From Nitrospirota bacterium (GTDB lineage: Bacteria; Nitrospirota; Thermodesulfovibrionia; UBA6902): a DNA stretch of 39,506 nt. The DNA lies in assembly GCA_016217725.1 (NCBI GenBank), contig JACRHB010000029.1, positions 1-39,506 of the forward strand. The letters are read 5' to 3'. The notes under the pieces were generated by a model that saw only the letters and a list, made by a program, of their open reading frames with translations, had not been told where the DNA came from and did no database searches. Position 1 is the stretch's first letter. Every line of letters starts with the position of its first letter. This document shows, one piece after another, positions 5,158 through 36,831 of this stretch. The position numbers and the translations under genes were made by a program.

Positions 5158-5175
5158 TTGCCACTTATGTGGCAA
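5158..5175. promoter_or_regulatory. palindrome TTGCCAC-TTAT-GTGGCAA
   Basis: A perfect 7-bp inverted repeat lies about 100 bp upstream of the original PEP-CTERM start. It could bind a dimeric regulator or form a hairpin. On the minus strand it includes TGGCAAAGCATTTTGAT, a poor match to a sigma-54 -24/-12 element. Apart from this and the repeat at 5329-5387, I see nothing in 5080-5428. Confidence 0.35.
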
Positions 5176-5328
5176 GCAATAGGTATGCCTGCATAAATGC
5201 ATTAAATTTAACTTGTTATTCGGGGGGTTAGATAATTACAGATTTATGTATTATTAAAGCTTGGGTGAAATCCCCACCTTCATCCGTTTATTTGCCCACA
5301 CCGGATTAAATATTGTCCGCTCTTTAAC

Positions 5329-5387
5329 GTAGCGTCGGGGTTTATCCCCGACGGAAAAAAGCGCCCCCAATAAATGAGGGCGCTGCA
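5329..5387. repeat. double-hairpin repeat, copy 2
   Basis: This is the better conserved copy of the repeat at 4033-4091, with stems GTCGGGG-TTTAT-CCCCGAC and AGCGCCC ... GGGCGCT. It lies about 40 bp past the end of the nuoG-like gene, next to another short palindrome (CCCCTCCCTTAGC ... at 5393-5421). It may help end transcription, though no U-tract follows. Confidence 0.65.
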
Positions 5388-5428
5388 AATTCCCCTCCCT
5401 TAGCAAGGAGAGGTAGGGGTGGTTTTGA

Positions 5429-7891
5429 TTACACCGTCTCAACCTTCACCACATCCAAATGAATCCCTCCCTTATCTGAAAGGCTCGTGAGGGCGCTTAC
5501 GCCGCTGTGGGGGAAATGCGCAGGGACATAGATGACGCCGTCGGGGACGTTGTCGGAGACAACGGCTTTGAGATATGCCTTACCGCGTCTTGAGGTAACC
5601 TTTACGTGTCCGTTGTCTGAAATGCCGAGCCGTTCAGCGTCATGCTCATTCATCTCGACAATCGCCTCGGCCGCAACAAGGCTGAGCGCTTTCGACCTTG
5701 TCGAACTGCTGCCTGCATGCTGCAGTATATCCCGGACAGCCATGTTCAGAGGATACTCTTTATCCGGTTCTTCACCGGGGGTATAGTGAACAGGGTTAAA
5801 ACAAGGCTGGGGGCTGAAGGCTGAAGGCTGAACCTCGGGCAGTAAAGCAATTTCTTTTGAAATGGTTTCAAGATTTCTGTTGCCCATGTCTTTTCCCATA
5901 GTCAGGGCAAGCTTGTTGATGATTTGCCAGTCGGGAAGCGCTTGTCCCATCGGTTCAATTGCTTTACAGACCTTTTGCGTAACTCCTTCGGCGTTTGTAT
6001 AAGTCCCGTCTTTTTCCGCCCAACTCGAGGCAGGCAGTACCACGTGAGCCAGTTTTGCCGTCTCTGTCAATGCGATGTCCTGTACGATCAGCAGGTTTAA
6101 TGATTTCAATGCAGTGATGATATTTGCGCTGTCCGGGAATGTGGAGACCGGGTCCGCGCCCATTATATAAAGCGCCTTGAGGGAGTAAGGCTCATACAGC
6201 ATCTCGCTTATGTCTTTTCCTGAAGCGCTTGCATCCGGTCTGACACCCATCTGATAACTGCCGAAGGTGTTGGCGTATTCCGCCGGTATCTGGAGGGCGT
6301 CGGGACTGTCGCCAAGCAGATTAATTAAATTTGCGGCGGCTAAGACCGTATTAAGTCCTTTTGTATTTTCAGAAACGCTGATGGAAAGGGTGAGCAATCT
6401 GTTTTTGGCTTTAGCCAATGCCTCTGCTGCTGCGGCAAGCTCTTCTTCGGCAATGCCTGTAATCTCCGATACCCTTACAGGGGTGTAATCTTTTAACGCT
6501 TCCTCAAGCTCCGAATACCCTGCGATCTTTGAGGCGTCTTGTTTATTAATGAGACCCTTGTCTATCATCACCTTCATTATTCCGTTAAGGAACGCTATGC
6601 CTGTACCCTGTTTAATCCTGGCCCATTGGGTGCTGTGCCGTGTCAGCTTTGTCGCCCTGCTGTCGGCAACGATAAGCTCCGCCCCCTGTCTTTTTGCCTT
6701 CAGGATGTTGAGACCGAAAACAGGATGTGTAACGCTGAGGTCGGACTCAATGACAAGGATAACTTCTTTGCCGAGAGGAGATTTCAGATTGATCTTATGG
6801 CCTGTCATGCCAAAGGCCTCTTTCCAGGCCTTCTCGGCAAGTCCGTAACCGAAGGCTGCGGAGGAATCAATATTGCCGGAGCCGACGACCTTCCGCATGA
6901 ATCTCTGCAATATGTAATTCTCCTCGTTCGTACACCGGGGCGAGCCGAGCGCTCCTATGGAAGACGGGCCTGAGGCATTGATTATGCTCTTCAGCCTGTA
7001 GCTTATGGAATTAAGCGCCTCATCCCATGAGACAGGCACAAGCTCTCCGTCTTTCCTTATCATGGGAGACGTGAGCCGGTTCTCGCTGTAAATGTAATCA
7101 ACACCGAACCTCCCCCTGCCGCAGAGATTTCCTTCGCTTACTCCGGTGTCTTCCTTACCCCTTGATCTCAATATCTTCCCATCCGTTATCCCCAGAGTAA
7201 GGGTGCAGCCGCAACTGCAGAAGGGGCATATGGTATCTTTCTCTTCAAGAGACCATTGCCGCGCCTTGAACTTGAAGGGCTTGCTCAGAATGGCGCCCGT
7301 AGGACATACGTCAATGCACTGGCCGCAGTAATCGCATTCAAGAGGCTCTCCGAATGCAGGCTGCACTACGGTGGGGAAGCCGCGCCCGATGAATCCCAGC
7401 GCCCCCCGGCCCTGATGCTCCGCGCAAAGCCGCACGCATTTGCCGCATAGTATGCACCTGTTTGAATTCAACTCCACAAAGGGGCTTCTTAAATCAGGCA
7501 GCGTACTTTTCCTCTGCCTCACAAAGCGTCCCTCCGGTCTGCCGTATTCATATGCCAAATCCTGCAGCTCGCATTCTCCCGCCTTGTCGCAGACGGGACA
7601 GTCCAGGGGGTGGTGCACCAGCATGAACTCAAGCACGTTCCGGCGTATCTTTCTGACCTTCGGGCTTTCGGTGAACACAACTATCCCTTCACCCGCCAAC
7701 GTCGCGCACGACGCTTCGAGCTTCCTCTGCCCCTAAATCTCCACGATACACAGCCTGCAACCTCCGTAAGGCAATAACCTTTTGTCATAGCAGAGATGGG
7801 GTATCTTTATGCCGTTGCCCAATGCGGCCTGAAGGATGGTGCTGCCTTTTTCCGTCTCTACCTTTTTACCGTTTATTGTCAGTTCTATCAT
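5429..7891 (-). CDS. NuoG-like NADH dehydrogenase subunit, interrupted by an in-frame TAG
   Basis: The frame from the ATG at 7891 (GGAGG 8 nt before) encodes about 820 residues with one amber codon at 7735-7733. Before it is a [2Fe-2S] ferredoxin fold ending CRLCIVEI. After it come GQRKLEASCAT, the His-Cys cluster motif (HHPLDCPVCDKAGECELQD), a 2x[4Fe-4S] ferredoxin segment, a molybdopterin-type [4Fe-4S] domain (CPFCSCGC) and a molybdopterin-oxidoreductase fold with its C-terminal binding domain. Where formate dehydrogenases carry Cys or Sec this has NIDSSAAFGYG, so it looks like a NuoG rather than an active formate dehydrogenase. It is the last gene of the operon. Residues near the middle of the second half (PSAFSPQP) come from a 7-bp tandem repeat. 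Confidence 0.85.
7733..7735 (-). other. in-frame amber codon inside nuoG-like gene
   Basis: Reading in the gene frame the codons are GAG ATT TAG GGG CAG AGG. NuoG relatives commonly read VEIEGQRKL at this point, so TAG is probably GAG changed by one base. The fourth [2Fe-2S] Cys (ASCAT) lies after the stop, so neither half can bind that cluster alone. Confidence 0.8.
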
Positions 7892-8076: not shown

Positions 8077-9960
8077 TTACTTACCGACCCCTGCCAGGCT
8101 TCCCGCCGCCATCCCTGCAATGAACTGCAAGTCAGCCTCGTTGGCGCTTCGCGCGGAGGCGGGAAGGATCTTTATCGAGCCGAACTTGCAAGTATCAACG
8201 CAGGTTCTGCACCGCACACATGATTCCTGCATGATCTTATGGGGCTTTTTCTTTTCGCCTTCAATTGCGTTTGAAGGACACGCCCTCTGGCATGCGCCGC
8301 AGCCTTTACAGAGTTTTTCATCTATGTAGAATGTGCAAAGGTCGCGGCATGCTCCTGCCGAACACCATTTGTCTTTTATGTGCGCTTCATACTCGTGCCT
8401 GAAATGTCTTATCGTTGAAAGCACGGGATTAGGGGCGGACTGGCCCAGCCCGCAAAGGGACGCCGAGATGATAGTCTCCGACATCTCTTCCAGCATCTCT
8501 ATATCTCCTTCTTTCCCCCTGCCTTCACATATATCAATGAGCAGGTCGTGCATCAGCTTGGTCCCGAGCCTGCAGGGGGCGCATTTCCCGCAGGATTCGT
8601 CCGCGGTAAATTCAAGGAAAAACTTCGCGGTGCTGACCATGCAGGTGCTCGTATCCATTACGACCATTCCCCCGGAGCCTACGATGGCGCCGCTCTTTTC
8701 GATGGCCTCATACGTCACCGGTATGTCGAGGTATGCCTCCGGGATACAGCCTCCCGAAGGGCCTCCCAATTGCACGGCCTTGAATTTGCTTCTCTTATTT
8801 ATTATCCCGCCGCCGATATCGAAGATGATCTTCCTCAGGGGTGTATCCATCGGGACTTCCACCAGGCCGACATTATTTATAGCTCCTGTAAGCGCAAAGA
8901 CCTTAGTGCCTGCGCTTTTTTCTGTTCCAAGGCTCCTGTACCATCCGGCGCCGTTTAAGACAATCTGCGGAATATTTGCAAAGGTCTCAACGTTGTTCAG
9001 AACGGTCGGCTTATCCCACAATCCCTTGACTGCGGAACGCCACAGCTTCGGTCTCGGCATGCCGCGTTTTCCTTCGATGGAGCGCATCAGGGCCGTAGCC
9101 TCTCCGCACACAAATGCGCCTGCGCCCTGATAAATCTCAAGGTCAAAGTCAAACCCCGTGCCCAGGATGTTGCTGCCTAACAACCCCGCCTCATAACACT
9201 GATCTATGGCGATTTGAAGACGTTTCACTGCCAGGGGATATTCAGCCCTTACATAGATATAGCCTTTATGTGATTCAGTTGCAACGCCGCAGATGATCAT
9301 CCCCTCAATTACTGCTTGTGGGTCTCCCTCCATAACCGCCCTGTCCATAAATGCCCCCGGATCGCCTTCATCACCGTTGCATACGACATATTTCACATCG
9401 GATTTGATCTTCAGCCCGAGCTCCCATTTCTTCCCTGTGGGAAAACCCGCCCCGCCTCTTCCCCGTAAGCCTGAGTCTGAAACCACCTTTACTATCTCTT
9501 CGGGTTTCATAAGGGTCAGCGCTTTTGAAAGCGCCTTATACCCGTCCATCGTGATATAGTCTTCGATCCTCTCCGGGTCGATAAGTCCCTTGTTTTTAAG
9601 CACTAAAAATACCTGGTGCTTGAAGAAGGGGATATCGTGTATTGATGGTATGGCAATTTTTTTATCCTGCTCTTTAAATGTTAATTTCTGATATGCTCTC
9701 CCTTTAAGAAAATGCTCTTCAACCAGAGCCGGTACATCTTCAACTGTCAATCCCTCATAAAATATCTCCTCCGGATGCACAATCATAACCGGCCCCTTGG
9801 CACAGAACACATTGGATCCCGAGATGACCAATTTTACTTCTTCATCAATTCCATTTTTCCTGAATTCCTCTTCAAGGGCAGCCTTGACCTTCGTTGTTCC
9901 GCATGCCATACAACATGTGCATCCGCAAAGCATTGCATGTGAACGAACCGCGGTTTCCAT
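8077..9960 (-). CDS. NADH-binding diaphorase subunit, NuoF/HndC-like
   Basis: The 627-residue protein oxidises or reduces NAD(P) through FMN and passes electrons along Fe-S clusters. In order it has a thioredoxin-like [2Fe-2S] domain (LCGCTCCMACG .. VFCAKGP), the NADH/FMN site (GLRGRGGAGFPTGKKW, then YVVCNGDEGDPGAF), an SLBB region, and the NuoF [4Fe-4S] motif CGKCAPCRLGT with distal Cys in SLCGLGQSAPNP. A C-terminal 2x[4Fe-4S] ferredoxin follows (CKGCGACQRACP, CVRCRTCVDTC). This architecture is that of bifurcating HndC/HydB-type subunits, larger than NuoF of complex I. The start at 9960 follows AAAGGAGG; the open frame further upstream is read-through of the 66-bp repeat. It is cotranscribed with its neighbours. 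Confidence 0.93.
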   Translation of the reverse strand: METAVRSHAMLCGCTCCMACGTTKVKAALEEEFRKNGIDEEVKLVISGSNVFCAKGPVMIVHPEEIFYEGLTVEDVPALVEEHFLKGRAYQKLTFKEQDKKIAIPSIHDIPFFKHQVFLVLKNKGLIDPERIEDYITMDGYKALSKALTLMKPEEIVKVVSDSGLRGRGGAGFPTGKKWELGLKIKSDVKYVVCNGDEGDPGAFMDRAVMEGDPQAVIEGMIICGVATESHKGYIYVRAEYPLAVKRLQIAIDQCYEAGLLGSNILGTGFDFDLEIYQGAGAFVCGEATALMRSIEGKRGMPRPKLWRSAVKGLWDKPTVLNNVETFANIPQIVLNGAGWYRSLGTEKSAGTKVFALTGAINNVGLVEVPMDTPLRKIIFDIGGGIINKRSKFKAVQLGGPSGGCIPEAYLDIPVTYEAIEKSGAIVGSGGMVVMDTSTCMVSTAKFFLEFTADESCGKCAPCRLGTKLMHDLLIDICEGRGKEGDIEMLEEMSETIISASLCGLGQSAPNPVLSTIRHFRHEYEAHIKDKWCSAGACRDLCTFYIDEKLCKGCGACQRACPSNAIEGEKKKPHKIMQESCVRCRTCVDTCKFGSIKILPASARSANEADLQFIAGMAAGSLAGVGK

Positions 9961-9982: not shown

Positions 9983-10050
9983 TCGTGAATCGTGTCCGTT
10001 GTCCGTGTCCGTTTTTTTTTAACGGTCACGTTAACCGGACACGGTTTACG
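9983..10050. repeat. 66-bp palindromic repeat, copy A
   Basis: The left part CGTGTCCGTTGTCCGTGTCC and right part ACGTTAACCGGACACG form an imperfect hairpin. It fills the gap between the hndB-like stop codon (10057-10055) and the ribosome binding site of the nuoF-like gene. Related copies are at 11398-11463, 12915-12979 and 31411-31476. Confidence 0.8.
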
Positions 10051-10054
10051 ATTT

Positions 10055-10438
10055 TTAATATATCGCTTCGCTTCCAAGCGCCAATGCGTACTTTTCTACG
10101 GGATTGCCGCCTATAATGTGCTCTTTGAATATCTCCTTGATCTTCTCTTCATTGAGGTCGCCGTATATGACAGGGGGCTGATCCACCAATTCAATGACAG
10201 CCATAGGCTCGCGGGCGCAGAGTCCGCCGCAGCCCGAGGTTTTCACAATGATATCGTTTGTTCCGGCAAGGGCTATCTCATTCATCAGCGCTGTCATAAC
10301 GTTCCTGGCGCCGGCAGCGATCCCGCAGGTTCCCATATGTACTACAACTTTAGCTTTGTAACCGCCTTTTCTGAGAGTGAACGTTGCCTTATTCTCTTCC
10401 TGTATTCTCTGAAGTTCCGCTATGGTCAGTTTAGTCAT
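10055..10438 (-). CDS. HndB-like thioredoxin-fold ferredoxin
   Basis: A 127-residue protein with the thioredoxin-like [2Fe-2S] pattern seen in HndB: GTCGIAAGARNV near residue 36 and TSGCGGLCAREP near 68. Only three cysteines are present in total (38, 70, 74), so cluster binding should be tested rather than assumed. It probably passes electrons within the diaphorase complex. The ATG at 10438 is chosen because AAAGGAGG stands 8-9 nt before it. It sits between the receiver-NuoE fusion and the nuoF-like gene, the same position hndB has between hndA and hndC. Confidence 0.85.
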   Translation of the reverse strand: MTKLTIAELQRIQEENKATFTLRKGGYKAKVVVHMGTCGIAAGARNVMTALMNEIALAGTNDIIVKTSGCGGLCAREPMAVIELVDQPPVIYGDLNEEKIKEIFKEHIIGGNPVEKYALALGSEAIY

Positions 10439-10617: not shown

Positions 10618-11373
10618 TTACGTTCCTCTTGCCTCCTCTAATTCTCTCATTTTGATAAACTCGTTGACTGCATCAACTACCCTCTTCCCCGTCTTCCAGG
10701 GCACGCCTCTCCAGGCCCTTCCGCTGCCGGTTTTGAAATATGAGGTGTCGCCGCTTCCGGGCTTGGTCCTGAAGCAGGAGTAAAACGAAACTATGCTGCG
10801 TACTTCAGAAGGGTAAATATTCAGCGCGCGCGCAATGCGCTCCTGTATCATTGAGGGGAGATACCCCAAGATTTTCTGGGAGTCCAGCAGCACCCTCACT
10901 ATGCTGTTTGATTCTTTCCCGTATTGATGAATCACGTTGTCCAATTCCGCAAGCACTGTCGGCGGGAATTCTTCTTCCGGCTCTTTCTCAGAGGCCTTTA
11001 CCTGTATCAATTCAAGCGCCTTATTTGTCACTTCTTTCAACAGCGCCGGAGTAAAGGGCTTTCTCAAGTGGCTGATTATGCCGAGCTTGTGCGCCTCTTT
11101 AATGGTCTCCTGCATCATGTAGTCCGCCATGACCACAATGCTGACGCCGGGCCGGGATTGCCTTATCCACTTTATGAGATAAATACTGTCCATCCCCGGC
11201 ATTGCAAGGTCTATGAGAGCAAGCTCATAATTATTCCGCTCTATCCGGTCCTTCGCCATTTCTCCGCTGAGCACGCCTTCAACGGAATAGCCTTCGTGAT
11301 TAAGTGCCTTCCATGCGCTCTTGATGACCTCAGGGTCATCGTCTGCGATTAAAATGTTTATGCTGTTTTTCAT
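10618..11373 (-). CDS. receiver domain fused to NuoE N-terminal helical domain
   Basis: The 251-residue protein starts at 11373 after AAAGGAGG. Residues 4-120 are a CheY-like receiver: acidic D11-D13, phospho-acceptor D55 (LALIDLAMPGMD) and K105 (LRKPF). The Thr/Ser switch position seems to be Ala (A83 in VVMADY). Residues about 140-205 match the NuoE/HoxE/HndA helical N-terminal domain (LDSQKILGYLPSMIQERIA, then SEVRSIVSFYSCF). The C-terminal 45 residues do not carry the thioredoxin-like [2Fe-2S] domain that normally follows. It occupies the hndA position of the operon. It may dock on the NuoF-like subunit and make it phosphorylation-responsive; this is inference. Confidence 0.85.
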   Translation of the reverse strand: MKNSINILIADDDPEVIKSAWKALNHEGYSVEGVLSGEMAKDRIERNNYELALIDLAMPGMDSIYLIKWIRQSRPGVSIVVMADYMMQETIKEAHKLGIISHLRKPFTPALLKEVTNKALELIQVKASEKEPEEEFPPTVLAELDNVIHQYGKESNSIVRVLLDSQKILGYLPSMIQERIARALNIYPSEVRSIVSFYSCFRTKPGSGDTSYFKTGSGRAWRGVPWKTGKRVVDAVNEFIKMRELEEARGT

Positions 11374-11397: not shown

Positions 11398-11463
11398 TCG
11401 TGATTCGTGTCCGTTGTCCGTGTCCGTGTTTCTTACGGTCACGTTAACCGGACACGTTTCACG
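11398..11463. repeat. 66-bp palindromic repeat, copy B
   Basis: Same unit as copy A, with CGTGTCCGTTGTCCGTGTCC at the left and ACGTTAACCGGACACG at the right. It contains the TGA stop of the nfnB-like gene (11461-11459) and ends close to the ribosome binding site of the receiver-NuoE gene. Confidence 0.8.
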
Positions 11464-12889
11464 CTTTAAACTCCCAATACTTCCACTTAAGATAATCGTT
11501 GATCCCATTCGCTGCCCTCCTTCCTGCGCCCATTGCCAGGATGACCGTTGCAGAGCCTGTAACGATGTCTCCACCGGCAAAGACGCCCTTCTTTGAAGTC
11601 ATGCCTGTGCCTTCTTCGGCTGCAATATACCCGCTCCTGTTAACCGTTAAATCCGGCATGGTCTTTGTTAAAAGCGGATTCGCCCTGGTCCCCAATGCCG
11701 GGATCGCCACGTCTATCTCGACCTGAAACTCGCTGCCTTTAACCGGAACCGGCTTTCTCCTCCCCGATTCATCAGGCTCTCCCAATTCCATCTTTATACA
11801 TTCAACCGCGCAGACGTTGCCCTTGCCGTCATCGATGAATCTTGTCGGGTTTGTCAGAAGCATGAACTCTATGCCTTCCTCATGCGCATGGTGGACTTCC
11901 GCCTTCCTTGCAGGCATCTCAGCCTCGGATCGCCTGTATATGAGGTAGACCTTTTCAGCGCCGAGCCTTAACGCCACTCTCGCAGCATCCATGGCGACGT
12001 TGCCGCCGCCCAATACCGCAACCCTTCGGCCTCTCTTTATAGGGGTGTCATATTCGGGGAAGAGATACGCCTTCATCAGATTGGCCCTTGTCAGAAACTC
12101 ATTTGCGGAGCAGACGCCGTTGAGATTCTCTCCCGGTATCCCCAAAAACATCGGCAGGCCTGCGCCTATGCAAATGAAGCATGCGTCATATCCATCCCCA
12201 TCCAACAATTCATCAATTGTATGCAGTTTCCCGATCACTGCATTCAGCACAAGCTCAACGCCGAGCTTCCTGATATACTCGACCTCCCGCTCCACTATCG
12301 CCTTCGGAAGCCTGAACTCCGGTATGCCGTATATCAATACGCCCCCCGGCTTATGCAAGGCCTCAAATAACGTAACCTGATGTCCGGCCTTTGCCAGATC
12401 GACCGCACAGGTCAAACCCCCGGGGCCTGAGCCTATCACGGCAGCTTTTCTGCCCGTAGGTTTCGGCAGCTCCGGAATCTTCATGTCGCCGTGGTCCGCC
12501 TCATAATCGGCAACGAATCTCTCCAGGTTCCCTATCGCAACGGACTTCCCCTTCTTTCCCATAAGACAGCGTGCTTCACACTGAACCTCCTGGGGACAGA
12601 CCCTTCCGCAGACGGCAGGCAAGGCGTTCCTTTCCTTGACCTTGTAACAGGCGTCCAGGAATTTTCTCTCTTTTATCAGAGCGATGAACGCGGGAATATC
12701 CACCTCAACCGGGCAGCCCTGCCTGCAGGGGCCGTTCTTGCAGGATAAACATCTGGACGCCTCCTCAACCGCCTCATCCGGCGTATATCCATAGGGAACC
12801 TCCAAAAAATTTCTTGCCCTTACCAGAGGCGGCTGCTCCCTCATGTCTACTCTGGGTTTTGTTTTTTTCTCCTCTATCATTGTTTCCAT
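11459..12889 (-). CDS. NADPH-binding subunit of an Nfn-type transhydrogenase (GltD/GltA-like)
   Basis: This 476-residue flavoprotein belongs to the glutamate-synthase small-subunit family. The N-terminus has the two [4Fe-4S] cysteine sets (CLSCKNGPCRQGCP and CGRVCPQEVQCEARC). An FAD-binding Rossmann motif (VIGSGPGGLTCAVDLA) and an NADPH-binding one (VAVLGGGNVAMDAARVAL) follow, then a GVFAGGDIVTGSATV FAD motif near the end. Adjacent to the NfnA-like gene and without a glutamate synthase large subunit, it is best read as NfnB, which couples NADPH, NADH and ferredoxin by electron bifurcation. GGAGG lies 10 nt before the ATG. An alternative start, MIEEKK, is 9 nt downstream. Confidence 0.9.
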   Translation of the reverse strand: METMIEEKKTKPRVDMREQPPLVRARNFLEVPYGYTPDEAVEEASRCLSCKNGPCRQGCPVEVDIPAFIALIKERKFLDACYKVKERNALPAVCGRVCPQEVQCEARCLMGKKGKSVAIGNLERFVADYEADHGDMKIPELPKPTGRKAAVIGSGPGGLTCAVDLAKAGHQVTLFEALHKPGGVLIYGIPEFRLPKAIVEREVEYIRKLGVELVLNAVIGKLHTIDELLDGDGYDACFICIGAGLPMFLGIPGENLNGVCSANEFLTRANLMKAYLFPEYDTPIKRGRRVAVLGGGNVAMDAARVALRLGAEKVYLIYRRSEAEMPARKAEVHHAHEEGIEFMLLTNPTRFIDDGKGNVCAVECIKMELGEPDESGRRKPVPVKGSEFQVEIDVAIPALGTRANPLLTKTMPDLTVNRSGYIAAEEGTGMTSKKGVFAGGDIVTGSATVILAMGAGRRAANGINDYLKWKYWEFKA

Positions 12890-12914: not shown

Positions 12915-12979
12915 GTTATTCGTGTCCGTTGTCCGTGTCCGTGTTTTCTTACGGTCACGTTAACCGGACACGTTTCACG
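12915..12979. repeat. 66-bp palindromic repeat, copy C
   Basis: Same unit as copies A and B. It overlaps the TGA stop of the nfnA-like gene (12977-12975) and ends about 8 nt before the ribosome binding site of the nfnB-like gene. Confidence 0.8.
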
Positions 12980-13811
12980 ATCTCCGAGCCATGTCTTCTC
13001 TTATATGGTTCATAGCAATGTTCTCCTCAGGAATATACCCCTGAAGTCGCTTCATGAGCAGATCGAAATCCACTTCATGACCGTTGAACTCAGGGCCGTC
13101 AACGCACGTGTATTTTGTCTCCCCTCCAACCTGCACCCTGCAGCCGCCGCACATTCCCGTGGCGTCAATCATGATCGAATTCAGGCTGACGATCGTTTCC
13201 ACCCGGTGTTTTTCCGTTGTCTTACACACGAACTTCATCATGATCGCAGGCCCGATAGCGACCACGAGATTTACCTTCTCTTTACTCAGGATTTCATCAA
13301 GGGGGATAGTCACCACCGCCTTTGTGCCGTAGGAGCCGTCGTCCGTGGTAATAATCAGGTCGTCGGAAACATTGCGCATCTTCTCTTCCCAGAAAAGTAT
13401 TGACTTCGTCCTTGCGCCTATGATTGAAATAACCTTGTTGCCAGCTTCTTTCAGCGCCCGCGCTATCGGGAAAACAGGCGCGATACCTACCCCGCCGCCC
13501 ACACAAACGACGTTCCCGAATTTTTTAATGTGGGAATGGTTGCCGAGCGGGCCGATGACGTCGGTTATGAAATCGCCTTCATTCAACGTCCCAAGATGAT
13601 GGGTCGTCTTACCGACCTTCTGAAAGACAGTGGTTATGGTTCCCCTCTCCCTGTCAAAATCGGCGATGGTCAAGGGCACCCGCTCCCCCTGCTCGTGGGT
13701 CCTCAGGATAAAAAAATTACCCGGCTTCGCCTTCCTTGCGATGCCTCTCGCCTCGATGTCGAACAAAGTGATTTGCTCCGAGAGCTCTTCCTTTTTTAAA
13801 ATTTTGTACAG
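12975..13811 (-). CDS. NAD-binding subunit of an Nfn-type transhydrogenase (PyrK/SudB-like)
   Basis: The protein is a ferredoxin:NADP reductase-like flavoprotein with an FAD region (AKPGNFFILR .. RVPLTIADFDRE), an NAD-binding region (VCVGGGVGIAPVFPIARAL) and a C-terminal [2Fe-2S] motif (CGGCRVQV .. YTCVDGPEF). With the next gene it makes an NfnAB pair. The first ATG/GTG/TTG-type start is a TTG at 13766, which would cut off the first beta strand. The reading frame instead extends to CTG at 13811, 8 nt after AAGGAGG, giving (M)YKILKKEELSEQITLFDIE, which matches the family N-terminus. An in-frame TAA lies two codons further upstream. CTG is therefore the likely start, an unusual one. It is the first gene of the operon. 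Confidence 0.88.
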   Translation of the reverse strand: MYKILKKEELSEQITLFDIEARGIARKAKPGNFFILRTHEQGERVPLTIADFDRERGTITTVFQKVGKTTHHLGTLNEGDFITDVIGPLGNHSHIKKFGNVVCVGGGVGIAPVFPIARALKEAGNKVISIIGARTKSILFWEEKMRNVSDDLIITTDDGSYGTKAVVTIPLDEILSKEKVNLVVAIGPAIMMKFVCKTTEKHRVETIVSLNSIMIDATGMCGGCRVQVGGETKYTCVDGPEFNGHEVDFDLLMKRLQGYIPEENIAMNHIREDMARRS

Positions 13812-14906: not shown

Positions 14907-15575
14907 TCACGAAAACGACTTGATCGCGTGCATAAGCACGTCGTGCGTGCCCTTCAATTGCAGTTTGATCTTGATATGCTCTATATAGGTCTCGACGGTC
15001 TTGACGCTGAGGTTCAACCGCTCGGCTATCTCGTGCTTTTTCAGGCCCTGCCCGATGAGCTGGTATACTTCCAGCTCGCGGTTGCTGAGAAGCTCCGTGG
15101 GAAAATCGATGTCTTCAAATTTGTTCTTAACGAATTTATGCAGCAGCCTTACGTTTAATTTGTCGCTGACGTATATCTCTCCGCCCAGGACTTTCCTTAT
15201 CGCGGTGAGCAGGTTCCTGGAGGATTCCTGCTTCATGACATAGCCCATCGCGCCTGTCTTAAGACAGCGCTCGGCATACGTGGCTTCATCGTGCATGGAG
15301 AGAACCAGCACCGGCAGACCGGGATGTGTATACGTGAGATTTTCAATAAGCCTGATCCCGCTGCCGTCCCTGAGGGTTATATCAACTATCACGATGTCGG
15401 GCTTGCATTGCGCTATAGCCTGCAAGGCATCTGAAACGTTATCCGCCTCACCGCAGACGGTAATGTCGTCTTCGGTGTTGATAAGACGTGAAAGACCTTC
15501 GCGTAAAATGCAATGGTCGTCAACAATAAAAATCTTTTTCTTCTGCGCCGTTTGCCCATTCGTTGGAGTTTTCAT
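14907..15575 (-). CDS. NarL/LuxR-family response regulator
   Basis: This 222-residue protein has a receiver domain (IVDDHCIL, phospho-acceptor in IVIVDITLRDG, VLSMHD switch, VMKQES with the conserved Lys). A C-terminal LuxR helix-turn-helix follows (LSNRELEVYQLIGQGLKKHE, LSVKTVETYIEHIKIKL). It should bind DNA when phosphorylated by the kinase encoded just upstream at 15688-17505. GGAGGCCTCC, itself palindromic, precedes the ATG by 5 nt. The 112-bp gap to the kinase gene is AT-rich and could hold its own promoter. Confidence 0.93.
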   Translation of the reverse strand: MKTPTNGQTAQKKKIFIVDDHCILREGLSRLINTEDDITVCGEADNVSDALQAIAQCKPDIVIVDITLRDGSGIRLIENLTYTHPGLPVLVLSMHDEATYAERCLKTGAMGYVMKQESSRNLLTAIRKVLGGEIYVSDKLNVRLLHKFVKNKFEDIDFPTELLSNRELEVYQLIGQGLKKHEIAERLNLSVKTVETYIEHIKIKLQLKGTHDVLMHAIKSFS

Positions 15576-15687: not shown

Positions 15688-17505
15688 CTATGTCACATCA
15701 CCTTCTCCTGCATCGGGGAAAACACATGTTACAATCGTCCCTTTATCGAGCTCCGACCGGACGTCAAGTGACGCATTGATTATGCCTGCCCTGTATCTCA
15801 TAACTTCCAGCCCCATGCTGCTTATTCGGTCCGGCACGACAAAACCCGTTCCATCATCTTTTATTGTAATTGTAATTTCATTAGTTATCTTGCTTAGCTG
15901 AATTTCGATATGCTTCGGCCTGGCGTGTCTTGCGGCATTGGTAATAGCCTCCTGGGCGATGCGATAGAGGTGTATCAGCGCCGCTGTGTTATATATCCGG
16001 ATAGGGTTTTTGCATATTACGCCGCATGGTATGCCGAACAGTTTTTCGGAGTTGGTCGCAAGGTCCACCATAGCCGTCATCAAGCTGTACTCATCCTTAT
16101 CCAGCATGGGCGAGAGGCCTATCGAGAGCGACTTGACCTGCGCCTTTGCCATCTCAACGAGGTGCGTGATCCTTTCCGCATCTTCAGACTCGGGAATTGA
16201 TTTTTTTCTCAGTGTATTTTCGAGCCCGTGTGTCATAAAGGAAATGGCGGTAAGCTGCTGTCCCAGGTTGTCGTGCAGGTCGTGCCCGATGCGCCTCCGC
16301 TCATGCTCCCTGATCTCGAGGAGCATTCTTTCAAGGTGTTTGCGCTCCGCTATCTCTTTATTCAGCTCATCTCTGGACGCGGTGAGGGCCTTTAAATTCT
16401 CTATCATCAGGTCAAACGTCCTGGATAATTCGCCTATTTCATCTTTTGCCGTGGTGCCGACTTTATAATCCAGATCGCCTTTTCCTATTATTTCACTCCC
16501 CTTATGCAATTCCTTGATCGGGTTGGAGATTGATTTTGCAACGCGAAAGGCGACTATTATCACTCCGAATACGGTCGTAATAAAAATGGCTATCATCCAT
16601 TTCCTGAGCCTGTTGATGGGGGCGTAGACTTCTTTCAAATCCTGTTTTGCCACAAACCCCCAGCGGTTCCGGGGGATATAAGTATAGGCCGCCAAAACCT
16701 TTTCACCTCTGTAATCAGACGTCTCTACAATTCCGGTATTCCCGCGCGAAGCCTCTACGGCGGCCTGCGCCTCGAGCTTCAGCTTGAGCGGCGCATCCTT
16801 GAACCCGCGCAGCTCGTTCAGGACGATAACGTCTTTATTAACGATGAGGGTCTCGCCGGTCTCCCCCATTCCCGTACGATTCGACAAAAGCTTATCGAGA
16901 GAAGCTTCAAGGTTGAATCTGGCAACAAGGACGCCGCTGACGCGGCTGCCGTCCGTCTGACTGAAAATGGGGATGGAAAATGCCATGCACGCCTTGTTCA
17001 GCGTTGAGGAATAATGGATATCCTCGATAAATAAGTTCAGGCTCTTCAAGGCGCCCTCATAATGAAAGTCGTGCGCCGGTCTTCGCCCCTCGCGCTCTTT
17101 ATCGGTTGAGACCATGATCTTTTTGGTGAACGGATTGACGATAAATATCTCATGGAAGTCATCATAATGCTCAAGATATTTCTTGAGAAAACCCCGCGCC
17201 TCTGAAATAATAGCCGTATTGCGCTGCTCCTCTCCGTCGTTCCCTCGACGGATCCTTTCCAGCGCCCGCATCTCGTTATCGCCGGCGATAGTGCGGATAT
17301 CCATGATCCTTTCGTCAAGCCAGTGATTCAATTCGGCGACTTTGATGTCCCTGATGGCCTCGAGCCGGTTGAATATCGACACCTTCATGGCGTTCACCAT
17401 ATGGAAATAAATTGCGACATTGACCATAATCAGGGGGAGCATGGCTATAATGAAAAACCAGAAGGTAAGGCGCACTCCGATGCTGTTGAATTTGAATGCT
17501 TTCAT
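15688..17505 (-). CDS. membrane sensor histidine kinase (HisKA_3, NarX-like)
   Basis: The 605-residue kinase has a first membrane span (about residues 15-35), a 270-residue extracytoplasmic dCache-like sensor, a second span (about 305-330), a HAMP linker and a coiled coil. A HisKA_3 domain follows with the phospho-acceptor in RRRIGHDLHDNLGQQLTA. The ATPase domain has AQEAITNAARHA (N box) and IKDDGTGF (G box). It pairs with the NarL-type regulator downstream. The open frame runs 10 codons further up to 17535, but that part lies in a palindromic repeat, so the ATG at 17505 is preferred. The ligand is unknown. Confidence 0.9.
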   Translation of the reverse strand: MKAFKFNSIGVRLTFWFFIIAMLPLIMVNVAIYFHMVNAMKVSIFNRLEAIRDIKVAELNHWLDERIMDIRTIAGDNEMRALERIRRGNDGEEQRNTAIISEARGFLKKYLEHYDDFHEIFIVNPFTKKIMVSTDKEREGRRPAHDFHYEGALKSLNLFIEDIHYSSTLNKACMAFSIPIFSQTDGSRVSGVLVARFNLEASLDKLLSNRTGMGETGETLIVNKDVIVLNELRGFKDAPLKLKLEAQAAVEASRGNTGIVETSDYRGEKVLAAYTYIPRNRWGFVAKQDLKEVYAPINRLRKWMIAIFITTVFGVIIVAFRVAKSISNPIKELHKGSEIIGKGDLDYKVGTTAKDEIGELSRTFDLMIENLKALTASRDELNKEIAERKHLERMLLEIREHERRRIGHDLHDNLGQQLTAISFMTHGLENTLRKKSIPESEDAERITHLVEMAKAQVKSLSIGLSPMLDKDEYSLMTAMVDLATNSEKLFGIPCGVICKNPIRIYNTAALIHLYRIAQEAITNAARHARPKHIEIQLSKITNEITITIKDDGTGFVVPDRISSMGLEVMRYRAGIINASLDVRSELDKGTIVTCVFPDAGEGDVT

Positions 17506-17530
17506 AACGCCTGCATCGTTAATCGAATTT

Positions 17531-17602
17531 GTCATTCTGAGCGTTAGCGAAGAATCTCATGCTTTCAATTAATTGAGACCCTTCGCTTCGCTCAGGGTGA
17601 CA
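17531..17602. repeat. GTCATTCTGAGC-type palindromic repeat
   Basis: The left arm GTCATTCTGAGCGTTAGCGA and the right arm TTCGCTTCGCTCAGGGTGAC are roughly complementary, with a 20-30-nt AT-rich loop. This type of repeat is widespread between genes in bacterial genomes of this kind. It provides the spurious start codon at 17535. Confidence 0.7.
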
Positions 17603-31410: not shown

Positions 31411-31476
31411 CGTTAACCGTGTCCGTTGTCCGTGTCCGTTATTTTTTACGGACACGTTAACCGGACACGGTTAACG
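31411..31476. repeat. 66-bp palindromic repeat, copy D
   Basis: This copy has perfect 15-bp ends (CGTTAACCGTGTCCG / CGGACACGGTTAACG) and the inner CCGTTGTCCGTGTCCG string shared with copies A-C. It lies 8 nt after the rubrerythrin stop and 12 nt before the end of the convergent 20-heme cytochrome gene. Confidence 0.85.
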
Positions 31477-31488
31477 CTGCTCCGCCTC

Positions 31489-33984
31489 TTATCTTATTAT
31501 CCTCGGCATTATCGGGCCTTTTCCTTTTTCCACCCTCTCTTCGGGATTGTGATAGAACTTGAACCTGAACAGGGCGTCAAGGCCGTGGCAGTCCATGCAG
31601 AGGAGGCTGTAAGTCTGCATCCTGAGGAAGCTGTTCGTTGCCGTGCCCTCGACATTAACCCCGGCGCCTATGACGTGGAATTTCGGATCCCATTGATGGA
31701 CGTTGTGGCACGAAGGGCATGATATATTGCTGACTGTGACAAATTCACCGGTGCCTTTATCGTAAAGAGGGAAATAATTAGGCTTGCCCTTGATATCCCT
31801 TCCGCCGGCGTTGGTGATGAGCATGCCCTCGGGATGCGAGGCGATCACGGGGATTTTATCTTTTGCGACGCTGTGTTCGGAATGGCATGTATTGCACATC
31901 ATATCCAGTATGCTGGCCCCTTTGCCGAAGCCCTGCGCCCAGAGCTTCAATTGGATTTTACCGTTATGGATCAGATGACAGGCGCCGCACGTCCCGGATT
32001 CGGCGGGAGTCTGCCCGGCGATATTCTTAAACGTCGGCGATATATAAATAAGGTCGTGGTCGGTCTTTTCAAGATAACCTTTGTCGGGGTGGCAATTGTC
32101 GCACAGCTTCGGCGACGGCGAATTTTCGAGTCTTAAAAAACTGTTTTGCGAATTCCCTTCAATATCCTTGTAATGATCTCCGGAGATAACTTTTGCAGGG
32201 TCCCAGCGGTGCGGGTCATGGCAGGTCTCGCAGGTCATCACGCCCTTCTTTGACACCTTCCCCTCTTTGTCGAAGAGCGGTAGGGTGGTAGAAAGCCCTT
32301 TCTCGGCAGGAGAGACGTTCAGGGGATGGGAATAGTCTTTTATCACCTTTTTATTGGCCATGCCCTTTTCATTGTGGCAGCTTATACACAGATCCTGTAC
32401 GGCCTGACCGCTCTTTGTCTTTATCTCCCTCCCCCATAAGTAGCTCTTCTGGCCTCCATGCACTATATGGCAAACGGCGCATAATCCCGATTCGGAAGGG
32501 GTTTTATTCAAGAAATTTTTTTCCTCAGGCGCGATTTTAGCGATGTCGTGTTTTGAGCCTGCTATAGTAAATTTATTATTATGACATTCCCCGCAGATAT
32601 CCGGAGAAGATTTCCTCAGGAAGGAAGTGGTTTGGTCCCCCCCGACGTCTTTTCTTATTTCCCCTTCGGTTGAATCCGCACGCCATCTGTGAGGGTCGTG
32701 ACAGGTGGTGCATGTTACCCTTCCGTCTCTGTCCTGGACGCCGTAAGAGTTAAAAAGAGGAAGCGCCAATTTATCTTTTTCGACGCCTATGACAGTCAGC
32801 AGCAGGTCTTTATCCTCTCTTTCAAAGGGATTGACGTCTACGGGATGCCTGTAGTCCAGGACTTCGGCTTTTTCAGCGACCTTGCCTTTGGTGTGACAGC
32901 TCAGGCAGAGCTGGGTTACGAAATCAGTCCCTTCGCCTGCCTTTCTCGCTTCCTTGTGCGGCAGATGGCAGGCGGAGCATGGGCCCGCCTCAGCAACTGT
33001 CTTTCCGTCCAGATTTTTTTCACCCGGGGCCGAATGCTGAAGATTATGTTTTGTATTTTCGATAGATTGCTTATCCGTGTGGCACGTCAGGCATAAAGTG
33101 GATTTATTGTCCCGCTTTATCAAAAGCAATTTCTGCTCGATTTTATTATTATGCACCTTGTGGCAGGTCTGGCATATGATCTGGGCGTTATACCCCAGCT
33201 CCGCCCCTCTTTGAAGCAGCTCATTGGGTATCTTTGCCTGGTCCGGAGTTATGTTTATGACGTGGAAGTGATTCCTTTTGCCGTCGGGTGTAAAGATATT
33301 TTTATCCGTATGGCATTCAAGGCAGAGATGGGAGTTCTTGGCGCTCTCGATTAAAAAGCTTTCATTCGGCGAGCCGTGCACCGTATGACAGGTTTCGCAA
33401 ATGATATGGTTTTTTTGATCTCCGACGACGGCGCCGTAATTAATAAGGGTTTTGGGGATCTCTTTCTCTCCCGGGCCGACAGGGTGGTTGCCGAACGGCG
33501 GCCCCCCGTCTTTGTCAGGGTGGCACATGACGCACATCGCGGAGTTCTTGTTTGAAGCCCTGATAAAGATGGTCTTTTCCATGCCCATTTCGCTTGAGAC
33601 GCCGTGCGCGGTATGACACGTAAAGCACTGCATCTTGCCGTCCTTGTCCAGGGGGAATACTTTGGGTATCTGCATTGTCGGGGGGGGCGGCTGGTTGACT
33701 TTATGCCTGAGATCGTTGTATACCCTGGCCCTCGAATCGACAACGCTCCCGTCGTGGCAGGAAAAACACATCTCGGGCTTGGCTGCGACCTTTTCCGCGG
33801 TATACTCCACGAGGTCCGAACCCCTGCCGTGAAGATAGAAGGTGTCGATCCAGTTGTAATGGCATATGGCGCATTCCTTTGCCGAGTCGGGATTCCCGGG
33901 CGCCTCGGCCTGCTGGGCAAAAGAAACGCCTTGTAACAAAGCGAATGAAATAATCAGCAGATTAATATAACTTATCTTTTTCAT
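31489..33984 (-). CDS. 20-heme c-type cytochrome, exported
   Basis: The 831-residue protein begins with a signal peptide (MKKISYINLLIISFALLQG..FAQQAEA) and holds 20 CxxCH heme sites, from CAICH near residue 37 to CMDCH near 800. The second half shows a repeated block: CxTCHDPHRW, then SFLR, C-x2-CH-N/P-x-K, a KHDI/DHDL string, TP(S/A)ESG-C-x2-CH-(I/L)-(V/I)H. It therefore probably grew by duplication. The N-terminal part uses CHT(V/A)HG and CHTDK pairs. A long electron wire in the periplasm or at the cell surface is likely. No outer-membrane barrel gene is adjacent. It follows an NHL-propeller gene by 16 bp. Confidence 0.93.
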   Translation of the reverse strand: MKKISYINLLIISFALLQGVSFAQQAEAPGNPDSAKECAICHYNWIDTFYLHGRGSDLVEYTAEKVAAKPEMCFSCHDGSVVDSRARVYNDLRHKVNQPPPPTMQIPKVFPLDKDGKMQCFTCHTAHGVSSEMGMEKTIFIRASNKNSAMCVMCHPDKDGGPPFGNHPVGPGEKEIPKTLINYGAVVGDQKNHIICETCHTVHGSPNESFLIESAKNSHLCLECHTDKNIFTPDGKRNHFHVINITPDQAKIPNELLQRGAELGYNAQIICQTCHKVHNNKIEQKLLLIKRDNKSTLCLTCHTDKQSIENTKHNLQHSAPGEKNLDGKTVAEAGPCSACHLPHKEARKAGEGTDFVTQLCLSCHTKGKVAEKAEVLDYRHPVDVNPFEREDKDLLLTVIGVEKDKLALPLFNSYGVQDRDGRVTCTTCHDPHRWRADSTEGEIRKDVGGDQTTSFLRKSSPDICGECHNNKFTIAGSKHDIAKIAPEEKNFLNKTPSESGLCAVCHIVHGGQKSYLWGREIKTKSGQAVQDLCISCHNEKGMANKKVIKDYSHPLNVSPAEKGLSTTLPLFDKEGKVSKKGVMTCETCHDPHRWDPAKVISGDHYKDIEGNSQNSFLRLENSPSPKLCDNCHPDKGYLEKTDHDLIYISPTFKNIAGQTPAESGTCGACHLIHNGKIQLKLWAQGFGKGASILDMMCNTCHSEHSVAKDKIPVIASHPEGMLITNAGGRDIKGKPNYFPLYDKGTGEFVTVSNISCPSCHNVHQWDPKFHVIGAGVNVEGTATNSFLRMQTYSLLCMDCHGLDALFRFKFYHNPEERVEKGKGPIMPRIIR

Positions 33985-34000
33985 CGCAATTTCAAATCAC

Positions 34001-34969
34001 TCACTCACTCTCTCCCCCTATGCCGTATACGCTCACCCTTTCCGCAAACATCTCCACGACGTAAAGCCTTTTATTTTTGCCGTCAATGAACAGGCCTACA
34101 GGGGTGGTGAATCTCCTGACCGTGCCTTTCGATGCGTCGCCTACTGCGGAATAGAATTCGCCCGATGATCTGAACACCTGGATCACACCCATATAGCTGT
34201 CGCTTACATAGACCTTGTCGTCGTCAAGCGCAACTCCCTTGGGCCTGAAGAATTCCCCTTTTTCGACCCCCCAACCTCCTATGCTCGTAACGTAACGGCC
34301 TTCGGGATTAAGCACCTGGACTCGTGTATTGATTACGTCGGCAACGAACAGATAGTTGTGTTTATCGAGGTCCATAAGAAACGGGTATCTGAACTCCCGC
34401 TCTCCTTCGCCCGGGCTGCCGTATGTATCTATTAATTGCCCGGTCGCCAGACTATATACAAGAATGTAATGATTATTATTGTCCGCCACGTAGAGCTTAT
34501 TCCCGGATTCATCAATCGCTACGTCGGTGGGATCAGCGGGTCTGCCGCTTTTTGAGGAGATCTTTATTTGCCCGAGAAAGCCGCCCGTGGAATTGAAGGC
34601 CTGGACCCTGTGGTTGCCTGAATCAGCTACATAAACCCTTCCCGTGCTGTCGATGTCGATTCCCAGGGGAAAATTGAATTCACCGTTGCCCCCCCCTTTC
34701 TTACCGAAGGAAAAGATGAACTTGCCGCTCTGGTTGAATACCTTTATCTTGTTGTTTACCCCGTCCACCACGTATATAAATCCGTCTCTTGAAACCGACA
34801 CGTCGCTCGGCTCCTTAAAATCGGACGTTATGTCAAAAAGATGCTTGACGTTTGTAAGTCTTATGCCGTAAGCGGGTGACGCAAAATGCGTGGAAAAGAA
34901 AAAGGAAGCGACTATTAAAAATATGAAGCTGCGGATTCTTAAAATGTTATATGGCAGAACGTTGCTCAA
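34001..34969 (-). CDS. NHL-repeat six-bladed beta-propeller, exported
   Basis: The 322-residue protein has an N-terminal signal peptide (RIRSFIFLIVASFFFSTHFA) and at least six NHL repeats, such as DGFIYVVDGVNNKIKVFNQ, TGRVYVADSGNHRVQAFNS and DDDKVYVSDSYMGVIQVF. It is probably periplasmic or secreted and may bind partner proteins. NHL proteins are encoded next to large multiheme cytochromes in metal-reducing bacteria. The start is a TTG with no ribosome binding site; a TATAAT (34984-34979) lies 9 nt upstream. Confidence 0.88.
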   Translation of the reverse strand: MSNVLPYNILRIRSFIFLIVASFFFSTHFASPAYGIRLTNVKHLFDITSDFKEPSDVSVSRDGFIYVVDGVNNKIKVFNQSGKFIFSFGKKGGGNGEFNFPLGIDIDSTGRVYVADSGNHRVQAFNSTGGFLGQIKISSKSGRPADPTDVAIDESGNKLYVADNNNHYILVYSLATGQLIDTYGSPGEGEREFRYPFLMDLDKHNYLFVADVINTRVQVLNPEGRYVTSIGGWGVEKGEFFRPKGVALDDDKVYVSDSYMGVIQVFRSSGEFYSAVGDASKGTVRRFTTPVGLFIDGKNKRLYVVEMFAERVSVYGIGGESE

Positions 34970-35089
34970 GGTAACAGTATTATAACAAATTGAAAATCAA
35001 ACGGTGACGTCATAACTTGAGTGGTTTTAAAATATATCTAACTCAGGTTGAAGAGGCAGAACCGCTCCCTTGACGTTTCAACTCTCAGG

Positions 35090-35992
35090 TTACGTGCCTT
35101 TTTTCTTCACCGGCTCGGGCTGCGGCGCCGGCGCGGGAGCAGGAGCTTCGCCGGGATGGAGCATTCTCGGCATGTAGAATTTTGTATAATTCTTTATCAT
35201 TCCTACTACTTCGGTGCTTATGATGGAATCTATCCTTTCTTTCGGATACCCGAGATCCTCGAAAGGCAGTATGGAAGCTTCTTTTTGATGACATTCTTCA
35301 CACATCACGGGCTGTTTGCTTACGATCTTATGGATCATCTTTTTTGCCTTGGACCTCTGTGATTCCGTGAGGGATTTCTCTTTTTCCCTGTACTCGCGCA
35401 CAAAACCGATCCTTTCTTCCGAATCAATTCTCTCGAGTTTTCCGCCGATGCGCTCAAACGATATTATCTTGGCGCGATAGGTGCCGGGCGTCGAGCCCTT
35501 GACCGGACTTTCCACTATATCGCCGGTCGTCCTGTCGTACCACTTGAACACCCTCACTTTTTGAGAACCCTCGGGCTTTACGTGACAGGTCTCGCAGCCG
35601 ACGAAAAACGCATGCATATTCAAAAAGGCCCTCAAATCCTTCAACTGGTCATGCGGCATGTCTCCGTGGCATTCAACGCAGTAGGACCTTTTGTCGGGGC
35701 CGACCTGGAAACCGATGTGGTGGAAATGTCCTTTTATCCTTTTTTCTTCGAGTATCTTGTAACCGAGGTAGTGCTTTACCTTCTCTTCGCTCTCAAGTAT
35801 GACCTTCTCAAAGGTGGTCTTCTCCGCCTCTTTCTTTTTCTGCTCCTTGAATTTTGTGATTTCGAGCGCCTGTTTCCTGTTGTGATATTCTTCAAAGAGA
35901 TGGGCAAAAGTCACCTGCCAGATTATCGCGATAAAGAATATCACCAACACCATAAAACCCAGCATGTATATTTTGAAAAAGAAGTTCTTCAT
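35090..35992 (-). CDS. membrane-anchored triheme cytochrome c
   Basis: A 300-residue protein with one N-terminal span (about residues 8-30), a charged coiled coil (about 35-80) and three heme motifs: CVECH (residue 105), CETCH (133) and CEECH (about 230). The C-terminus is a Pro/Ala-rich tail (APAPAPAPQPEPVKKKGT). The periplasmic domain should pass electrons from the cytochrome b encoded just before it to soluble carriers. Its ATG overlaps the preceding TGA by four bases (ATGA), so the two are translationally coupled. Confidence 0.88.
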   Translation of the reverse strand: MKNFFFKIYMLGFMVLVIFFIAIIWQVTFAHLFEEYHNRKQALEITKFKEQKKKEAEKTTFEKVILESEEKVKHYLGYKILEEKRIKGHFHHIGFQVGPDKRSYCVECHGDMPHDQLKDLRAFLNMHAFFVGCETCHVKPEGSQKVRVFKWYDRTTGDIVESPVKGSTPGTYRAKIISFERIGGKLERIDSEERIGFVREYREKEKSLTESQRSKAKKMIHKIVSKQPVMCEECHQKEASILPFEDLGYPKERIDSIISTEVVGMIKNYTKFYMPRMLHPGEAPAPAPAPQPEPVKKKGT

Positions 35993-36825: not shown

Positions 36826-36831
36826 TTTTTT

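Follow-up and report, generated by a model that had tools for sequence, protein, structure and literature searches.

In the electron-bifurcating HydABC/Bfu enzymes, the HydC/BfuC subunit has an N-terminal helical domain, carries the [2Fe-2S] cluster C1, and works with a HydB/BfuB-type FMN partner; HydC-type chains contact HydB/NuoF. The main text of PMC9304861 places C1 on the mobile C-terminal domain of BfuC, proposes that it moves back and forth from the FMN to the B2 site, and states that all Bfu enzymes conserve it. The same text describes NfnAB, in line with established knowledge, as bifurcating by its own FAD (PMC9304861).

Here we describe a 39,506-nucleotide stretch of DNA from a Nitrospirota bacterium, hereafter the window, in which a CheY-like receiver is fused to a NuoE-type helical domain. 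Like HydC/BfuC, the window protein combines this helical domain with a HydB/BfuB-type FMN partner; unlike HydC/BfuC, it carries an N-terminal receiver and belongs to a clade without C1. The gene order is that of HndABCD of Desulfovibrio fructosovorans (HndA, HndB, HndC, HndD), with the fusion in the HndA slot, but the window HndD has a formate dehydrogenase (FDH)-like domain lacking the catalytic Sec/Cys and no hydrogenase catalytic-domain match in Pfam, and NfnAB is added. The Stn and Nfn-Bfu transhydrogenases likewise join a Bfu core to an NfnB-like NADPH module, which is a domain within BfuA in those enzymes (PMC9304861), whereas the window has separate NfnA and NfnB genes beside a NuoG/FDH-like BfuA.

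Domain organization of the fusion protein

The open reading frames of the window place the fusion gene, 251 codons long, on the minus strand from 11373 down to 10618, with AGGAGG directly upstream of its ATG; the plus-strand frame over these positions is interrupted by stops. An earlier note, made from the letters of the sequence, had reported a 251-residue receiver-NuoE fusion here, which stands once the strand is corrected to minus. The protein is laid out as follows:

10618..11373, minus strand: 251-aa receiver-NuoE fusion lacking the cluster-bearing half (open reading frame and Pfam; member of a 12-copy clade)
11020..11361, minus strand: CheY-like receiver, residues 5-118, with D11, D12, D55, A83, and K105 (PF00072 at 7-115; AF2 pLDDT mostly >90)
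10759..10962, minus strand: NuoE/HydC N-terminal four-helix domain, residues 138-205 (PF01257 positions 2-62 of 145; AF2 helices 138-199; HydC profile matches in the PDB)
10621..10758, minus strand: tail, residues 206-251, without cluster cysteines (alignment; AF2, low confidence)

Pfam searches bear out both halves of the reported fusion: residues 7-115 match Response_reg (PF00072; E 1.7e-20), and residues 145-205 match positions 2-62 of the 145-position profile PF01257 (E 2.3e-11), scoring 44.2 bits against a cutoff of 24.8, so that the NuoE kinship claimed for residues 140-205 lies well above chance. Because the match ends at position 62, the second, cluster-bearing part of NuoE is absent, in agreement with the earlier note, and the four cysteines are missing with it. 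The best two profile matches of the helical domain in the PDB are HydC-type chains (the HydC matches being 7p5h_C, 7t2r_C, and 7q4v_C), which upholds the proposed relationship to subunits contacting NuoF. Among the matches listed in a Foldseek search against the PDB, we found only response regulators or single receivers and no such fusion.

An AF2 model of the window protein, built with 37 related proteins, comprises a confident receiver, four helices (138-199), and a low-confidence tail containing a strand (211-214) and a helix (226-240), with pLDDT between 30 and 65 by block. In a full-length fusion modeled likewise, a strand (211-216) and a helix (226-237) precede the remainder of the thioredoxin-like half. 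Given the similar placement of these elements, in a region of low confidence, residues 207-251 of the window protein may be the remnant of the lost half, namely, its first strand and helix; the tail is too diverged to demonstrate any retained thioredoxin-like fold. The missing half cannot be put down to a frameshift in the window gene, since other genomes have short copies of a similar kind, and all belong to one clade.

Operon and genomic neighborhoods

The fusion gene lies between NfnB and HndB, where the NuoE/HydC gene sits in related operons, so the hndA-like position attributed to it is correct. The genes around it are:

15688..17535, minus strand: HAMP/HisKA_3 histidine kinase, NarX-like (Cache match below the Pfam cutoff); candidate phosphodonor by neighborhood
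14907..15575, minus strand: NarL/FixJ-type response regulator, a conserved neighbor of the short-form clade
12975..13811, minus strand: NfnA/SudB (DHODB-like), with an apparent CTG start (13809-13811) where relatives such as L043, L046, and L049 have Met
11459..12889, minus strand: NfnB/SudA (GltD-like, NADPH and FAD domains; Pfam and profile matches)
10055..10438, minus strand: HndB-like thioredoxin-fold protein with three conserved Cys (just under the Pfam cutoff)
8077..9960, minus strand: HndC/HydB-like (BfuB) FMN subunit with an N-terminal [2Fe-2S] domain, Complex1_51K, NADH_4Fe-4S, and C-terminal 2x4Fe-4S
5429..7891, minus strand: HndD/NuoG-like subunit with an FDH-like pterin domain, catalytic Sec/Cys missing, in-frame TAG at 7733-7735

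The paired DHODB-like and GltD-like subunits of NfnAB/SudAB are recognized with 389 bits by NF004862 (cutoff 220) and with 566 bits by TIGR01316 (cutoff 471.75).

To compare neighborhoods, we counted genes on the same strand within 10 kb using phmmer at thresholds that we set ourselves. Fusions lacking the cluster-bearing half, hereafter short forms, are accompanied in the 11 loci besides the window by NfnA and NfnB (10 each), the NarL-like regulator (10), the NarX-like kinase (8), HndB (10), HndC (11), and HndD (9), with two contigs ending inside the operon, and in none of the 11 by PHP, HATPase, or receiver-GcvH genes; the window carries all of the short-form neighbors. Full-length fusions occupy the same slot before HndB-HndC. 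In 27 such loci, the counts, which are lower bounds because many of the contigs are short, are 26 for HndB, 25 for HndC, 23 for HndD, 25 for the receiver-GcvH-like gene, 18 for HATPase, and 12 for PHP; a NarXL neighbor was found in 0 of the 27, and NfnA and NfnB in just 2 (L076 and L080). A further locus, L079, also has NfnAB and lies outside the 27 because its fusion frame is split. L076 and L080 combine NfnAB and a full-length fusion with two HndC-HndD sets; they look like a merged arrangement, and we infer that the short form could have arisen from such an operon. The link of the short form to NfnAB is not absolute, as L048 (genome G017) has kept the fusion protein with no recognizable NfnAB or HndB within the 19.5 kb read.

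Several other features of these regions were recorded. The receiver-GcvH-like gene of full-length loci is exemplified by L009:10763-11530 (minus strand), which encodes a receiver joined to a domain resembling glycine-cleavage H protein (Pfam GCV_H, E 1.6e-07); genes of this kind lie near the full-length fusion gene in the 25 loci counted above. In L049, two similar proteins of ~250 aa with receiver-like stretches, judged by eye (5173-5946 and 6062-6817, plus strand), lie between the NarXL-like pair and NfnA. The window contains four plus-strand copies, with at most one mismatch, of the 20-bp sequence GGTCACGTTAACCGGACACG (10024-10043, 11437-11456, 12953-12972, and 31450-31469), compared with 0 in 100 shuffles; three of them fall in intergenic gaps of the fusion operon, each within ~20 bases after a stop codon. 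Farther along, at 31489-37890 (minus strand), open reading frames of 831, 300, and 352 aa with many CxxCH motifs form a cluster that resembles, by eye, multiheme c-type cytochromes; together with what look like an NHL-repeat protein and a cytochrome b-like membrane protein, they possibly make up a respiratory module.

Full-length and short fusions in Nitrospirota

A search of 61 genomes, including that of the window, yielded 63 matches at E<=1e-20, spread over 51 of them. One of them is a second fusion in the window's own genome, a 290-aa protein on contig C134 (L009:9814-10686) with the same domain order, a complete PF01257 match (1-144 of 145), and all four Cys, which is 49% identical to the window protein over residues 2-209. 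Our alignment covers 50 of the 63 matches; of the others, 10 were not retrieved for it, and 3 are either truncated by the end of a contig or split (L063, L071, and L079). All 38 aligned full-length fusions have the four [2Fe-2S] cysteines (C-x4-C and C-x3-C), and none of the 12 short ones, window included, has the set: three of the Cys columns are gaps in 12, 12, and 11 of the 12 rows, and the fourth holds Cys in 2. The short forms (frames of 247-274 aa) are 12 copies from 11 genomes, all of the window's own family. In a tree built on the region common to both forms, they constitute one clade with 100/100 support, a result somewhat weakened by the long branches that the tree tool flags on several short-form rows, including the window, L046, L048, and L053. 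The window copy is thus placed by the tree and the cysteine alignment as a secondarily shortened member of one derived clade. Independent losses of the cluster half are unneeded, given that the tree requires one change; more changes remain compatible with it.

Across the phylum, a profile search matched 96 of 295 genomes at E<=1e-40. In 76 of the 96, the match covers both the receiver and NuoE parts, and by hand count all of these belong to the window's class. The remaining 20 show one part only: 12 are from other classes, with the NuoE part (one of these matches runs through a stop as far back as profile position 96), and 8 are from the window's class (one match lying at a contig end). Among named contigs, a single-protein query gave no confirmed relative; a helical-domain alignment matched at least 594 stretches and at least 430 relatives, of which the best 80 were kept, from a set that may omit the closest records to the window's genome. 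Among these best 80 of at least 430 there are 39 fusions, 38 of which are titled Nitrospirae, Nitrospirota, Nitrospiraceae, Thermodesulfovibrio, or Thermodesulfovibrionales and the other Bacterium BMS3Bbin05; no short form occurs among the 80, with the same reservation for records closest to the window, and the loci among them titled with other groups are all unfused. By these matches, receiver-NuoE fusions with the [2Fe-2S] half intact are a common feature of the window's class of Nitrospirota, the relatives of Thermodesulfovibrio.

The arrangement had been thought undescribed, and we indeed found no description of a receiver-NuoE fusion in the literature searched on the topic: the words response regulator, receiver, and CheY are absent from the main text of PMC9304861, and neither response regulator nor receiver occurs in that of PMC11406978. 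The fusion is not unique, however, being common in its class, and it is a variant of known components, receiver proteins and BfuC/NuoE subunits, rather than a new kind.

The partner enzyme

The diaphorase-like, NuoF-like partner expected by the earlier note is present as the adjoining HndC, which is not a plain diaphorase but a BfuB of the bifurcating type. This assignment is made from sequence affinities: the best PDB matches of the window HndC are bifurcating HydB-type chains (7t2r_B, 761 bits; 7q4v_B, 757), the best NuoF scoring 364, and its predicted B2-site residues (C440, C478, H527, C533, and C538) have the same spacing as those of the NiFe-HydB given in the main text of PMC9304861 (C438, C476, H525, C531, and C536). 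C440, H527, C533, and C538 are kept in every row with letters there. At the second position, the 9 short-form rows with letters have 7 Cys and 2 Ser, and 24 of the 29 full-length-locus rows with letters have Thr. According to the same text, roughly two in three BfuB sequences carry Thr here, which makes the potential lower (PMC9304861). The B2 site is thus not the same in short-form and full-length loci; any compensation by this difference for the missing C1 is speculative. A further residue confined to short-form loci is Cys224 of HndC (12 of 12 rows with letters vs 0 of 29), and the N-terminal [2Fe-2S] ligands are kept in the short-form rows with the exception of Ser49 in the window. Among the matches listed, all 11 HndC proteins with at least 75% identity adjoin a short receiver-NuoE gene; the HndC of genome G034 runs off its contig end.

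In HndD, a NuoG-like N-terminal part is combined with an FDH-like domain, and Pfam gives no match to a hydrogenase catalytic domain. Its Sec/Cys position is Gly in the window and in all 35 rows (of 37) with letters there, making formate an unlikely substrate; formate dehydrogenase activity is ruled out by the missing catalytic residue. HndB, considered as a gained replacement for C1, gives no sign of such a role: its three Cys are identical in short-form (11 of 11) and full-length (25 of 25) loci.

Conservation of the receiver and the case for phosphorylation

The window receiver retains D11, D12, D55, and K105, that is, the acidic pocket, the phosphoacceptor Asp, and the Lys, and has Ala83 at the Thr/Ser switch position; D55, K105, and Ala83 had all been read correctly from the sequence. 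Full-length fusions keep D11, D12, D55, and K105 in 38 of 38 rows and T83 in 37. Among the fusions in named contigs, 37 of 39 have Asp at D55 and D12, the exceptions being L107, which is cut, and L104. Since the phospho-sites are near-invariant in the full-length fusions, phosphorylation was probably the ancestral mode of the fusion receiver, and the full-length ancestor may plausibly have been under phosphorelay control. Conservation across the family also indicates that even full-length forms can do without phosphorylation, and that it is weakening in the window's clade. In the full-length fusion L104:7611-8465 (plus strand), the receiver has lost both the acidic pocket and the Lys, and its match to Response_reg (E 0.0026) lies below the cutoff. 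In the short forms, D11 and K105 are kept in 12 of 12 and D55 in 10 (Glu in 2), D12 is kept in 7 (Asn in 5), and His stands for Tyr at 102 in all 12.

The idea of a locked receiver, which the earlier note had attached to Ala83, does not hold as the design of the clade: residue 83 is Thr in 10, Ser in 1, and Ala in 1 of the 12 short forms, the Ala being private to the window copy. An active switch, in which D55 receives a phosphoryl group from the neighboring NarX-like kinase and the receiver shifts the helical domain on HndC to gate the enzyme, seems to us unlikely, even though it accounts for the intact D11, D12, D55, and K105 of the window, for the kinase and regulator beside 8 and 10 of the 11 other short-form loci, and for the constancy of D55 in full-length relatives (38 of 38, and 37 of 39 in named contigs with one cut and one degenerate). 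Speaking against it are the Glu55 and Asn12 substitutions within the clade, Ala83 in the window, the degenerate full-length receiver of L104, and a receiver dN/dS of 0.05-0.30 in short forms vs 0.01-0.07 in full-length pairs, where computable. Phosphorelay control of the window copy, as judged from its residues, is only possible. Conversely, the retention of D55 and K105 in most short forms is unexplained by a purely structural role.

Selection on the short form

Whole-gene dN/dS of the short fusion is 0.12-0.36 (7 of 8 pairs being computable), and that of its operon mates NfnA, NfnB, HndB, HndC, and HndD in short-form pairs is 0.036-0.149, ratios that are rough because synonymous sites are near saturation. 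By region, and where computable, the receiver and helical parts of short forms give 0.05-0.38 and the tail 0.08-0.53, compared with 0.01-0.15 for the regions of full-length forms. The short fusion is under purifying selection, yet evolves faster than its operon partners; together with the close HndC relatives found beside short fusion genes, these values suggest a subunit that is kept under looser constraint.

The window copy itself has blemishes that could reflect early decay or assembly error: the HndD TAG, HndC Ser49, the NfnA CTG, Ala83, and 16 private departures of HndC at otherwise invariant columns, as against 4-9 in six others compared. Private changes in the window HndD and NfnB are unremarkable, and despite the blemishes, operon-mate dN/dS is low. 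The TAG, at 7733-7735 (minus strand) near the N terminus of HndD, where relatives encode an amino acid, is either a sequencing error or a nonsense change; L044, L047, and L052 likewise have a split HndC or HndD frame. We consider it improbable that the NfnAB-linked copy is becoming a pseudogene with a functionless protein. The lost cluster half, the faster evolution, the HndD TAG, the HndC Ser ligand and large number of private HndC changes, and the split frames in L044 and L047 would fit such decay, but the occurrence in 11 genomes of 12 copies, all with frames of 247-274 aa, the whole-gene ratios above (the tail alone reaching 0.53 in one pair), the low ratios of the operon mates, and tail features common to the clade (a Trp, and an FI-K/R motif in 10 of 12) argue for a maintained protein. 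Equally doubtful is a signaling adapter or phosphate sink for the neighboring NarXL pair, with the helical domain used outside the enzyme, because, although NarXL-type genes adjoin the short form even in L048, which lacks NfnAB, none of the 27 full-length loci has a NarXL neighbor at our thresholds, yet full-length fusions occupy the same slot before HndB-HndC, and the helical domain retains its HydC-like signature.

Proposed function

The reading that we favor, and hold to be somewhat more probable than its competitors taken together, is that the window protein is a docking or scaffold subunit of an NADPH-linked Bfu-type enzyme, has a phospho-regulated BfuC as its ancestor, and carries a mainly structural receiver. 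It would be a derived BfuC (HydC/NuoE-type) subunit of a redox enzyme comprising NfnAB and a Bfu-type HndB-HndC-HndD set. The ancestral form would have been a receiver joined to a complete NuoE subunit, a form still common in the class, if the direction of change is as we infer. Sequence, clade, and conservation suggest that, within one family, a second, NfnAB-linked copy lost the mobile [2Fe-2S] (C1) half and kept the helical domain. This domain would dock on the FMN subunit HndC, and the scaffold would hold HndC for electron exchange among NADH, ferredoxin, and, via NfnAB, NADPH, with no electron passing through the short receiver-NuoE subunit. HndC would thus be held by the helical domain yet be unable to use the C1 path, a role that NfnAB may take over. 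The receiver, a probable phospho-switch in the full-length ancestor, would be partly eroded and mainly structural in the cluster-less clade, with residual phospho-control, for instance from the adjacent NarX-like kinase, possible where D55 and K105 remain.

A bolder proposal, which we regard as rather unlikely, is that in the full-length lineage the receiver moves NuoE/HydC, so that a phosphorelay sets the C1 gate, and that the sister NfnAB-linked enzyme runs without C1, bifurcation having moved to the NfnAB FAD or to HndB, or been given up. Two points, the role of C1 as a gate and signaling control of the enzyme itself, are testable because the full-length (L009) and cluster-less (window) copies share one genome. 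In the Bfu mechanism proposed in the main text of PMC9304861, C1 serves as a gate, with the flavin on one side and the low-potential path on the other; a clade with the BfuB ligands but without C1 is a natural test of that mechanism. If true, the bolder proposal would amount to direct two-component control of a bifurcating flavoenzyme along with a natural C1-less Bfu core; a receiver within the C1-carrying subunit of the full-length forms would mean signaling control of the energy-coupling enzyme itself, not of its gene.
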